This document shows positions 11,977-18,046 of a stretch of DNA of 64,000 nt, one piece after another. How positions within the stretch are numbered: position 1 is the first letter of the stretch; every line of letters begins with the position of its first letter. The notes under the pieces were generated by a model. It was not told the origin of the DNA. It made no database searches and saw only the letters and a program-made list of their open reading frames with translations. The DNA is taken from the NCBI GenBank assembly GCA_024103275.1, contig JAGFIV010000018.1, positions 1 through 64,000 of the forward strand. The letters run 5' to 3'. The stretch comes from Flavobacteriales bacterium (GTDB taxonomy: Bacteria > Bacteroidota > Bacteroidia > Flavobacteriales_F > PHOS-HE28). The translations under genes and the position numbers were made by a program.

Positions 11977-14742
11977 TCAACGCACCACCAGGCGCTCCAC
12001 ACGTTGGCCCTTGCCGTGCTTCAGGCGCACCAGGTACACGCCGCTGGTCAGCCCCATCCGGCCCAGGTTGAGGGTAAGCTCTTCCACCCCTGCTTGCACT
12101 TGCTGTTCGTGTACAAGGCGGCCGGTCATGTCCAAGAATGACAGTGTCCCGGTGGCATTGCCCGCCAGGTCGAGGTGTACCGTCACATTGTTGTCGGCCG
12201 GGTTCGGCAGCAGGCTCAGGTAGCCGTTCTGCGCAACTTCATCGATCCCCACGTTGGTCCCGGTGATATTGATGTCATCGATGTAGATGTCGTTCGAGGC
12301 CTGGCTCGACGTGTATTCGAACTTCAGGCGTACATGGTCACGCGCATAGGCATTGCTCAGGTTGAAGGTGGCCTCACGCCATTCGTCGTCCTGGGGAACG
12401 TGGCCCGGGGCGCGTACACCGGCCGAGACCAGCGTGGCACCGCTCAAGGTCTTTTGCGCATTCGTCCACGTCTCCCCGCAATTGAATGAGGCGTATACCT
12501 TCAGGTTCTCGGTGATCTCATCCGCATTGGTGGTCAAAGTGCTGGCCGCATACCAGAAGCTGACCTGGATGTTGTGCAGGAAGCTCAGGTCCAGGGTGGG
12601 TGTCAACAGCACGTCCACATCCCGGAAACGGAAAATATCATACTGGAACATGTCCTGCACCAAGGTGTACGTGTTGGAGGCATTCAGCTTGGCGCTGCCT
12701 GCTCCCCAGTGGCCCACTTGGGGATCCCACTGCCACCGGCTCTGGTTGTTCTCCCAGTTCACCACCGGCCACTGGTTGAAGTCCTGCTGCGAATTGAACG
12801 GCTCATACACGGGGACATCCTTCTCCGGCCAGTTTGCGCCCACCCAAACGGGGTATTTCTCGCTGGTGGAGGTCCCGTTGTCATTGCTTACCGTCAGGGT
12901 CACCTTCCGGGGCCCCACCTCGCTGAAGCTGACCACGGGGTTCTGCTGGTCGGAGGTGGCGGGGTTGCCGCCCTCGAAGGTCCAATACCAGGAAGTGGCC
13001 TCGGCCCGCTTCACGTTGGCCTTGAACCGGACGGACTGGCCGGTGCACACGAAGGGGTCCAGCGCATAGAAGTCGGACTCCGGGCCGCAGGTGGTTTCAT
13101 GGCCGCCCACGCCCGTATAGATATGGTTGGCCTCGGTCCACAGGTTGTTGCGCCCGCTGGCGGAGTTTTCCAGGGCCGCTTCCATGCGGTCCTTTTGCCC
13201 GTAGGTGAACATGTTGTCGCAGTAGGAATACTCCATATAGTTCTGCGTGTTCTCAATGATGCCATGGCTGCCCTTGATCGCCAGGTCCTCCACGCTGAAC
13301 CACCCGTCGTCCTCCTCGGCGTTCCAGGCATAGATCCGGAAGGTCACCGGGGTGACCAGGTTGATGAAGCCGGTGGCCGGGGTGGTCATCTTGGCGGTGA
13401 TGGGTATGCCGGTGGTATCCCGGCGGAAAAAAGCCGTATTGTTGCCGGCGTTCAGCAGGTTGGTGTCCAAGGTCAGGGGCAGGTTGCTGCCGAAGTTGTC
13501 GATGCTGCTGCGCACGGCGAAGCTGCGCGGGCCGTTCAGGGACCGGTCCACCTTGAAATTGAGGCCGGTGAAGCTCATGGCCTTGCCCAATTGGGGCGTC
13601 AACGTGATGGTGTAATATTTCGAGGTATTGATGCTTCCGGTGAGCTCGCCCGGGGTAGTCGCACCGTCCGGCGCGCCCAAGCCCCATTGGGAGAAGCCGA
13701 ACTTCCCGTCCACTTGCGTGTTGCCGGAGACGCCCTCGGCCGCGGCCTGCCCGAAAGTCACCGCCGGTACTTGGCCCAAGGAGTCGGCGTATTCCGGCCA
13801 TGGCGTGAAGGGGTCCGTGCTTCCGGTACCGGAGTTCACCCCGTTGAAATCATATACGGTGGTGAATACCTTGGAGCTGCAGAAATAGTCGTACATGTCC
13901 AGGATGGGGTTGCAGCTTCCGTGCCCCCGTGTAATGGGCGTGTCGTCCACACCATCATCACCGCACTGTTCGCCGGGGCTGTGCCCGCTGCCCCAGGTAT
14001 GCTCCAGGTTCAGGTAGTGCCCCACTTCGTGGGTGAGCGCCCGGGAACGGTACGGATTGCCCGTGCCGATGCTTCCGATGTAGCTGTGCACCAGGATCAC
14101 GCCGTCCAGCAAGGACCCCGCGCCATCCTGGGCGCTGCCGGGTATGGTGGCGTAGCCGGCGGGCTGGAACCCGTCACTGTATGGCTGCAGCGATTGCACC
14201 ACCCAAATGTTCAGGTAGTGCTCACGGAACCAGGGATTGAGCTTCGCGAAGTCATTGGCTTGCGTGGACCTCAGCGTGCTGATCCGGTCGATGCCATTGG
14301 TGCAATTCCCGAAGGGGTCCTTCGTCGCCAATTGGAACCGGATCCTTGTTCCCGCCGCGATCTGGTCGAACCCGCAGCAAATGTCCACCGTGTCCGCGTT
14401 CAGCTTCGCGTAGTCCCTGTTCAGGATGTCAATGGCATCGTGGATCTGGGCATCGCTGATGTTGTGGCCGTCAGTCGCCGAATTCGGGTTGTACAGCACG
14501 TGGAAGACCACCGGGATCACATATTCCTGGCCGTCGTCGCGTTGCCCCTTGTTGGCCTGCAGGTAGGCCTGTATCGCCTGCTGGTATTCGGCGTCCATGC
14601 GCACCAGGTCCGGGTTCGCCTCGTACCGCAACTGCCGCATTTGATCGGTCAGGCACGGTTGCAATTCTTGGCCCTGCACAGGGGTGGCAGCGCCCACCGC
14701 GGCCAGTGCCGCCAAAGGAAGTACGTGTCGAAAAAGCTTCAT
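11977..14742 (-). CDS. Secreted M43 (pappalysin-type) zinc metalloprotease, T9SS cargo
   Basis: A protein of 921 aa. The signal peptide is residues 1-25 (MKLFRHVLPL...TPVQGQ). A short pro-region precedes the catalytic domain, which starts near residue 73 (YVIPVVFHVLY). The zinc motif HEVGHYLNLEH is at 238-248, with the M43 continuation HTWG and DDTPI. The Met-turn YMEYS is at 502-506. The roughly 250 residues between the two elements are far more than usual and contain an extra beta-sandwich (see findings). After the protease come a PKD domain (about 560-635), a MAM-like sandwich ending in YIDDINI, and a T9SS sorting domain (LSLLPNPADN...SGVYLVRLKH, ending LVVR). By family it should be an endopeptidase on the surface or in the medium, related to ulilysin and mirolysin. 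It converges on phoH. Confidence 0.92.
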   Translation of the reverse strand: MKLFRHVLPLAALAAVGAATPVQGQELQPCLTDQMRQLRYEANPDLVRMDAEYQQAIQAYLQANKGQRDDGQEYVIPVVFHVLYNPNSATDGHNISDAQIHDAIDILNRDYAKLNADTVDICCGFDQIAAGTRIRFQLATKDPFGNCTNGIDRISTLRSTQANDFAKLNPWFREHYLNIWVVQSLQPYSDGFQPAGYATIPGSAQDGAGSLLDGVILVHSYIGSIGTGNPYRSRALTHEVGHYLNLEHTWGSGHSPGEQCGDDGVDDTPITRGHGSCNPILDMYDYFCSSKVFTTVYDFNGVNSGTGSTDPFTPWPEYADSLGQVPAVTFGQAAAEGVSGNTQVDGKFGFSQWGLGAPDGATTPGELTGSINTSKYYTITLTPQLGKAMSFTGLNFKVDRSLNGPRSFAVRSSIDNFGSNLPLTLDTNLLNAGNNTAFFRRDTTGIPITAKMTTPATGFINLVTPVTFRIYAWNAEEDDGWFSVEDLAIKGSHGIIENTQNYMEYSYCDNMFTYGQKDRMEAALENSASGRNNLWTEANHIYTGVGGHETTCGPESDFYALDPFVCTGQSVRFKANVKRAEATSWYWTFEGGNPATSDQQNPVVSFSEVGPRKVTLTVSNDNGTSTSEKYPVWVGANWPEKDVPVYEPFNSQQDFNQWPVVNWENNQSRWQWDPQVGHWGAGSAKLNASNTYTLVQDMFQYDIFRFRDVDVLLTPTLDLSFLHNIQVSFWYAASTLTTNADEITENLKVYASFNCGETWTNAQKTLSGATLVSAGVRAPGHVPQDDEWREATFNLSNAYARDHVRLKFEYTSSQASNDIYIDDINITGTNVGIDEVAQNGYLSLLPNPADNNVTVHLDLAGNATGTLSFLDMTGRLVHEQQVQAGVEELTLNLGRMGLTSGVYLVRLKHGKGQRVERLVVR

Positions 14743-15014: not shown

Positions 15015-16112
15015 ATGGGTTTGAAGTGCGGTATCGTGGGCCTGCCCAACGTGGGGAAGAGCACCCTTTTCAATTGCGTCAGCAGCGCCAAGGCCCAAGC
15101 GGCCAATTTCCCGTTTTGCACCATTGAGCCCAACACGGGCATCATCACCGTGCCGGACGGGCGGCTCAACGCCTTGGCGGCCATCGTCAAGCCCCAACGG
15201 ATCGTGCCCACCACGGTGGAGATCACGGATATTGCCGGGCTGGTGAAGGGGGCCAGCAAGGGCGAGGGCCTGGGCAACCAGTTCCTGGCCAACATCCGCG
15301 AGTGCGATGCCATCCTGCACGTGCTGCGCTGCTTCGACGACCCCAACGTGGTGCATGTGGACGGCAGCGTGGACCCCGTGCGCGACAAGGAGGTCATCGA
15401 CATCGAGCTGCAACTGAAGGACCTGGAGACCGTGGAGGCACGGATCAAGAAGGTGGAAAAGCAGGCCACCACGGGCGACAAGGAGGCCAAGCGGCGCCAC
15501 GAGCTGCTGGTGCGCATCAGGGAGGCCCTGCTCAAGGGCGAAAGCGCCCGGGCGGTGATCACCGCCAACGACGACCCGGCCCTGGTGAACGAGTTCCAGT
15601 TGCTCACCACCAAGCCGGTGCTGTACGTATGCAACGTGGAGGAAAAGAGCGCCACCACCGGGAACGCCCATGTGGAGGCCGTGCGCAAGGCCGTGGCGGG
15701 CGAGCAGGCCGAGGTCATCTTCGTCACAGCGGCCATCGAGGCGGAGATCGCCAGCATGGACACGGCCGAGGAGCGCGACATGTTCCTGCAGGACCTGGGC
15801 CTGGAGGAGCCCGGCGTGAACCGCTTGATCCGTGCGGCCTACAAGCTGCTCAACCTGGCCACCTATTTCACCGCCGGCGAAAAGGAGGTGCGCGCATGGA
15901 CCATCCACCAGGGCATGACGGCGCCGCAGGCGGCCGGGGTGATCCACACGGATTTTGAGAAAGGCTTCATCCGCGCCGAGGTGATCGGCTATGATGATTA
16001 CATCGCCTTCAAGGGCGAGGCCGGGGCCCGGGCGGCGGGCAGGCTGCGCTCCGAGGGCAAGGAATACATGGTAAAGGACGGCGATGTGATGCACTTCCTC
16101 TTCAACGTATGA
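15015..16112 (+). CDS. ychF: Redox-regulated/ribosome-associated GTPase YchF (Ola1/Obg family)
   Basis: A protein of 365 aa, the normal length for YchF. The ATG at 15015 begins the conserved [17 protein letters not shown], so longer upstream frames are rejected. The G1 P-loop is GLPNVGKS. The switch region and G3 follow ([20 protein letters not shown]). A helical coiled-coil insertion covers about residues 125-200. The C-terminal TGS domain includes [14 protein letters not shown] and [11 protein letters not shown]. YchF hydrolyses ATP more readily than GTP and associates with ribosomes, with roles in stress responses. The stop overlaps the next start (ATGA), so ychF is probably co-transcribed with the FTR1 gene. 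Confidence 0.97.
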
Positions 16113-18046
16113 TGGCCTGGCCGCGCTTGTTGCTCGTGGTGTTGATGCTGTCCGGCCTGGGCCGGGCCGGCATGGCGGCCGATGGCACGGGGGAACGGGC
16201 GCGCACGGTGGTGCACATGCTGGATTATGTCAGCGTGGACTACCCCGAGTTCGTGGTGGAGGGAACCGTGCTGGACAGCGCCGAATATGCTGAGCAGCAG
16301 GAATTCGCCATGCAGGTGCGGGTGCTGCTGGAGGAACTGCCCAAGGTATCGGGTGCGGCGGACCTGGTGGGCATGGCCCGCAAGCTGGAGCAACGGATAG
16401 GGGAGCGGGCGGAGGGCGTGGAGGTGTCGGCCCTGGCCAACGCCCTGCGCAACGAGGTCATCGCGGTGTACGAGGTGGCACTGGCACCGGCCAGGCCGCC
16501 CGATCCGGCCCGCGGCGCGGCGCTGTATGCGTCCCATTGCGCAAGCTGCCATGGCGCCACCGGCCACGGTGACGGCCCGCAAAGCGGGGGACTGGAACCG
16601 GCACCACGCGATTTCCACGACCAGGCCGCCATGGCCGTGCGCAGCCCCTTTGGCCTGTACAACACGATCACCTTGGGCGTGCCCGGCACGTCCATGCTGG
16701 CCTACAGTGCGCTCAGCGACGATGAACGCTGGGCCCTGGCCTTCCATGCAGCCAACCTGCGTACCACGCCGGAGGACCTGGAACGCGGGGAGGCCCTGTG
16801 GAAGCAAGGCCGCGGCAAGGACCTGTTCACCAACTTGACCGCCCTGGTGAACACCACGCCCATGCAGGCCGAGGAGCAATTGGGGCCGGGAGGTGAGGCC
16901 ATCATGGCGTTCTTGTTGGCCCACCCTGAAGCGGTGGTGGCTGCGGCACCGTCGCCGCTCACGGTCTCACGCACACGGCTGGACGAGGCGCTGCAGGCCT
17001 ACCGTTCCGGCGATGCCGCCGGGGCCAGGCGCCTTTCCATCAGCGCCTACCTGGAAGGCTTCGAGCTGATCGAATCGGCGCTCGACAACGTGGATGCCCC
17101 GCTGCGCAAGGAGACCGAGCGGGAGATGATGGCCTTGCGCTCGTTGATATCGGCCAACGCCCCGGTGGACTCCGTGGCGGCATCGGTGGCACACATCCGC
17201 GGCCTGCTGGACCGGGCGGACGCACAGCTCAGTGCCGGTGCGCTCTCACCGGCCGGTGCCTTCATCAGCTCCCTCATCATCCTGTTGCGCGAGGGCCTGG
17301 AGGCCATCCTGGTGCTGGCGGCCATCATCGCCTTTGTCCTCAAGACCGGCCGCCGTGATGCCTTGCCGTACATCCATGCCGGGTGGATCGGGGCGGTCGC
17401 CCTGGGTGCGGGTACCTGGTTGCTGGCGCGCTACGCCATCCATGTTTCCGGGGCCAACCGCGAGCTCACGGAGGGGATCACTGCGCTGCTGGCCGCAGTA
17501 ATGCTTCTGTACGTGGGCTGGTGGCTGCACACCAAGTCGAATGCCATGGCCTGGCAGCGCTATGTCAAGGAAAGGGTGGGCTCGGCCTTGGGGCGCAAGA
17601 CGCTCTGGGCGCTGGCGGGCATCTCATTCCTGTCGGTATACCGCGAGTTGTTCGAGATCATCCTGTTCTATGAAACACTGTTCAGCCAGGCCGGGCCGGA
17701 CAACCAACGCGCCGTGCTGGGCGGCATGTTGGTGGCGGCCCTCCTGCTGGTGCTGGTGGGCGCGGCCATCCTGAAGTACAGCGTGCGCCTGCCTTTGGGG
17801 CCTTTCTTCGCCGTCACGGGCATCCTGCTGGCGCTGATGGCCGTGGTCTTTGTGGGCAATGGCATCGCGGCCTTGCAGGAAGCGGGCGTCTTCGATGCCA
17901 CCTTCGTGCGCTTCATCACCATCCCGGTGCTGGGCATACACCCCACGGCGCAGGGCCTGGGTGCCCAAGGCGCGGCGATCTTGCTGATCTTTCTGGGCTT
18001 TCTATGGACGCGCAGCCATAGGGCCGCGGCCAAGGCCGGACACTGA
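16109..18046 (+). CDS. Cytochrome c / FTR1 family iron permease fusion
   Basis: A protein of 645 aa that overlaps ychF by 4 bp. After a signal peptide (residues 1-23) comes a helical region, then a class I cytochrome c domain. Its heme motif is CASCH (144-148) and a probable axial methionine is M196 (GVPGTSML). A helical linker leads to a seven-helix FTR1-type permease (about 384-640). REGLE at 394-398 and RELFE at 513-517 are the two RExxE iron-binding motifs. In yeast, Ftr1 imports Fe3+ produced by a ferroxidase. In bacteria, haem-bearing partners or fused domains are thought to supply the redox step. The likely role is iron uptake across the inner membrane with a periplasmic cytochrome. 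Domain order and motifs are directly visible; substrate and direction are inferred. Confidence 0.92.

Follow-up and report, generated by a model that had tools for sequence, protein, structure and literature searches.

A jelly-roll domain inserted before the Met-turn of a predicted secreted M43 metalloprotease recurs in Bacteroidota

The protease gene and its locus

In the window, the whole 64,000-nucleotide stretch of contig JAGFIV010000018.1 from the Flavobacteriales bacterium assembly GCA_024103275.1, we detected a single open frame of 921 amino acids on the reverse strand (11977-14742). By sequence and model, its product is a T9SS-secreted metalloprotease of the M43 family (lower pappalysins) with an inserted domain and predicted activity. 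A signal peptide, recognized by eye, and a prosegment occupy residues 1-72 (14527..14742; this and all further features of the protein are on the reverse strand). They are followed by the first part of the M43 catalytic domain (residues 73-288, 13879..14526), which ends at the third conserved cysteine and includes the zinc motif HEVGHYLNLEH, placed by alignment with relatives (residues 238-248, 13999..14031). The inserted jelly-roll domain, delimited by alignment and AlphaFold2, comprises 206 amino acids (residues 289-494, 13261..13878). The second part of the catalytic domain, with the C-terminal helix (residues 495-545, 13108..13260; Pfam, alignment and AlphaFold2), contains the Met-turn YMEYS (residues 502-506, 13225..13239; sequence and alignment), then Cys508. 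Further downstream are a PKD domain (residues 562-628, 12859..13059; profile match), a MAM/reelin-like region whose matches (E 0.001-0.05) are below the Pfam cut-off (residues 665-833, 12244..12750), and a T9SS type A sorting domain recognized by Pfam and NCBIfam profiles (residues 846-921, 11980..12207).

The M43 profile PF05572 matches the protein with 64.4 bits (cut-off 23) in two stretches, profile positions 4-118 and 115-152, that lie about 200 residues apart. The M43 signature is present, with HExxHxx[G/N/D]xxH at residues 238-248 and the Met-turn plus its following tyrosine, YMEY, at residues 502-505. Cys30 of the prosegment is invariant in 61 aligned sequences and is predicted to be the cysteine switch, a mechanism described for mirolysin (PMC6949598). 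Together with Cys260, Cys277, Cys288 and Cys508, all likewise invariant in the alignment, it matches mirolysin Cys23, Cys243, Cys262, Cys271 and Cys291. The cysteines for the switch and for the two conserved M43 disulfide pairs are all present, the bonds being putative.

The gene order PhoH, M43 protease, YchF and FTR1-like permease is syntenic in the genus and surrounds the orthologues in at least six other genomes, several of which encode two inserted M43 copies side by side. Adjacent pairs of inserted M43 genes were noted at L068, L069, L076, L098, L107 and L108. The gene adjoining the protease (16109-18046, forward strand), also syntenic in the genus, appears by eye to join a c-type cytochrome-like N-terminus (CxxCH) to an FTR1-like iron permease.

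The insertion point

The zinc motif and the Met-turn are separated by 253 residues, in agreement with the distance of about 250 given in the initial annotation. The 206 extra residues begin directly after Cys288, the third conserved cysteine of the catalytic domain. Uninserted relatives align up to Cys288 and resume at I495-E-N, with a short loop in between. The insert previously placed at about residues 295-495 (13258-13860) is thus real, and its boundaries move to residues 289-494. An uninserted paralogue from the same genome (G000:C104, 698 amino acids) aligns with residues 43-278 and 495-917 in two blocks that are only 24 bases apart.

The three cysteines that follow the zinc motif are equally spaced with or without the insert (about +22, +39 and +49). 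Their mirolysin counterparts are Cys243, Cys262 and Cys271 (PMC6949598; PMC11674741), so the insert fills the segment of mirolysin Cys271-Asn282. The distance from Cys271 to Met284 is 13 residues in mirolysin, whereas Cys288 and Met503 are 215 residues apart here. Sequence and the cited papers together support a position in the below-cleft subdomain that bears the third zinc ligand and the Met-turn; the expectation that the insert sits beside the active-site cleft holds at this level, as a position in sequence.

Chance, assembly error and a frameshift were ruled out because the frame is open throughout and more than 50 independent assemblies share the insertion point. Recent acquisition of foreign DNA was rejected, as G+C shows no step over the insert (0.60-0.63).

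Predicted structure

An AlphaFold2 model of residues 26-566, built with 60 relatives, reached a mean pLDDT of 90.8 and a pTM of 0.88. Outside the insert it superposes on proulilysin (8cdb; Z 33.6, rmsd 2.2 A, 290 of 306 residues) and on promirolysin (Z 31.9). In the model, the prosegment and catalytic fold of M43 are kept intact despite the insert, which supports the proposal that the inserted region lies outside the usual protease fold. The protein shares with mirolysin and ulilysin (6r7v, 8cdb) the fold of catalytic domain and prosegment (Z 31.9-33.6), the zinc motif, the Met-turn, the cysteine switch and four structural cysteines. In contrast, mirolysin Asp289, which reads basic P1' residues, has no counterpart in the protein, in the inserted members or in most uninserted relatives. 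A mirolysin-like basic P1' specificity is consequently not expected, and cleavage specificity should differ from that of both ulilysin and mirolysin. The region equivalent to Asp289 is at 13206-13224 of the window.

Folded alone, the insert gave a pLDDT of 93.1 and a pTM of 0.91 and is nearly all beta. The model presents it as a separately folding jelly-roll beta-sandwich, as had been suspected. Its best solved neighbours are CBM15 (Z 9.7), BcsB, CBM27 (Z 8.9), CBM22 and the cleaved adhesin domains of Kgp (Z 8.5-9.7 overall), and its fold resembles the cleaved-adhesin/MAM sandwiches. This is a level of similarity that many jelly rolls reach, and since many score nearly equally, the comparison identifies the fold class and shows no function.

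The prosegment of the zymogen model keeps its proulilysin-like alignment, so the presence of the insert need not mean a closed cleft. This weighs against a steric gate, the access control considered in the initial annotation, by which the insert would shape or cover part of the cleft and limit the substrates that reach the zinc, or would aid latency. We regard such a gate as unlikely. In its favour, the domain enters the chain after the zinc ligands and ahead of the Met-turn; mirolysin residues 258-260, which contact the substrate at S4', lie just ahead of the inserted segment; and the extra copies or nested repeats described below would enlarge such a gate.

The inserted domain outside M43

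No Pfam or NCBIfam match above chance was found for the insert or for 16 relatives. There was likewise no match to a CBM sequence family, the jelly-roll fold of the CBMs being reproduced by the model only. Nor did the insert match the MAM or cleaved adhesin sequence families, its likeness to them being one of fold alone. One weak match to solved structures by sequence (E 0.014, a bacterial toxin entry) was taken as chance.

As the initial annotation anticipated, the domain also occurs as a free secreted protein, in which it is accompanied only by a signal peptide and a T9SS tail, in proteins of about 310-340 amino acids. It also heads larger secreted proteins, and one genome (G053) encodes both the free and the inserted form. 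Against Pfam and NCBIfam, the sorting tail of the one free form examined was recognized and the other matches were weak and unrelated. Genes of the free form are often neighbouring pairs of unequal copies (L205, L206, L207, L210 and L211).

Polar and aromatic residues are kept in both forms (W353, Y376, R400, R406, R411, N420, D442, R469, Y471, N474 and E476). This shared conservation favours a role that the module has in its own right over a gate specific to the protease alone. A steric gate would predict protease-adapted surfaces on the insert, but conservation restricted to inserts, as opposed to free copies, was seen at only five positions.

Distribution and architecture variants

Among 129 distinct retrieved M43 proteins with a readable Met-turn, a set that was gathered by similarity to inserted proteins and so yields no frequencies, the spacing between zinc motif and Met-turn was 50-69 residues in 58, 250-319 in 62, 450-469 in three and 730-739 in six, with none in between. 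The first class lacks the insert, as in the initial annotation's account of related proteases in which only some tens of residues separate the two motifs, and the second has one insert. Proteins with a spacing of about 460 have two tandem jelly rolls in the same loop and come from two distant lineages (L126:4914-7124 and L137:4884-7100). At about 735, the insert is in turn split close to its C-terminal strands by Ig-like repeats that amount to about 440 residues. This nested class was found in at least six genomes (L064-L066 and L128-L133, for example L128:4908-7964).

In a sample of 395 genomes of the class, M43 was present in 359 and the insert domain, in any protein, in 82; the insert was found inside M43 in at least 25 of the 395, from seven families. 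A phylum-wide draw gave strong matches only in the source genome and in two further frames, one of 695 aa in G636 and one of 1432 aa in G402, the latter without a zinc motif. Inserted M43 is a recurrent minority form in Bacteroidota and not common across M43 as a whole. One candidate for a degenerate protease (L087, 922 amino acids) was rejected, as its zinc motif reads HETGH. Some of the metagenome-assembled genomes that carry these proteins are titled Actinomyces viscosus, Chryseobacterium gleum or Chitinophaga pinensis (L114, L106 and L083), titles that look like placeholders or errors.

We found no report of this insertion in the open-licence literature searched. Cytophagalysin, an M43 protease of Cytophaga, is likewise a Bacteroidota member with a prosegment and extra beta domains, but its Ig-like extra domains lie at the C-terminus, only two helices are added to its catalytic domain, and no domain is described between its zinc motif and Met-turn (PMC11674741).

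Evolution and selection

On a tree of the catalytic core with the insert removed, presence or absence of the insert requires 14 changes, at least 11 of them forced by well-supported branches; a single gain followed by losses would take 16 losses. In the unrooted domain tree, a single branch (SH-aLRT 98) separates the inserted from the free domains. This leaves repeated independent capture of the domain unsupported and fits a single transfer between the two forms. Divergence of the insert correlates with that of the core (Mantel r 0.74, against at most 0.19 in 2000 permutations), so the inserts mostly travel with their own protease. Their history may have been a single gain followed by many losses; alternatively, M43 paralogues may have exchanged inserts.

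Mean identity is about 42% among inserts and about 50% among cores. The insert is under purifying selection, with dN/dS of 0.05-0.25 in 11 of the 12 scorable pairs, similar to the core, the ratios being rough because most dS values exceed 1. The pair that includes the gene studied here (11977-14742) gave 0.48 for the insert and 0.32 for the core. Such selection speaks against the insert being a tolerated passenger in a loop that takes up secreted modules with little functional effect, so that modules come and go. The many presence/absence changes and the tandem and nested growth at a single site would agree with a passenger, but the identity that inserts keep relative to the core, and the way they track core divergence, make it improbable.

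A possible substrate-anchoring role

The reading we favour, at even odds, is that the protein is a T9SS-secreted, cysteine-switch-regulated M43 protease in which a self-folding jelly roll, set in the loop between the equivalent of mirolysin Cys271 and the Met-turn, would act as a substrate-anchoring exosite. A secreted module that folds by itself would have been placed into this loop and would be tethered by two short connections on the below-cleft subdomain. From there it could bind a polymer or protein surface and hand the attached substrate to the zinc, like the fibronectin type II insert of MMP-2 and MMP-9. The free secreted form would do its own binding in other members of the phylum. The fold neighbours hint, with less force, at a glycan or another repetitive surface polymer as ligand. 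Catalysis needs no insert, since close relatives that share the downstream domains lack it or have lost it.

In MMP-2 and MMP-9 the fibronectin type II insert precedes the zinc helix, not the Met-turn. No such repeats were found just before the zinc helix here, where a jelly roll of about 200 amino acids follows the third zinc ligand. The two systems are alike in having whole binding domains within a metzincin catalytic domain, which in MMP-2 and MMP-9 widen substrate use (PMC7696829), but they belong to different families and use different domain types. The exosite reading draws by analogy on this precedent and, as a second, on the INS domain, likewise an inserted beta domain, of StcE, a secreted bacterial metzincin that cleaves glycoproteins (PMC7542363); StcE belongs to M66, and both family and domain differ from the M43 insert.

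The module might instead anchor the enzyme to the surface or matrix of the cell that produces it, for placement or stability, and not to the substrate. Cargo of the T9SS is often cell-attached, the free form is likewise T9SS cargo, and cleaved adhesin domains are among the nearest folds of the insert. An anchor need not occupy a catalytic loop, however, and the downstream PKD and MAM-like domains could serve this purpose; we hold out little prospect for this alternative.

The loop before the Met-turn in this M43 branch may be a long-lived accretion site, a view to which we give slightly less than an even chance. One secreted binding module would have entered once; since then, lineages would have retained it, lost it, duplicated it or extended it with nested Ig-like repeats, and so altered the targets of one conserved protease. 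The results define a widespread secreted domain of Bacteroidota without a Pfam or NCBIfam model. Together with close uninserted relatives and the free form, proteins whose active-site loop contains no module, one, two or a single interrupted one make up a natural series for direct tests of how domain insertion affects protease specificity.
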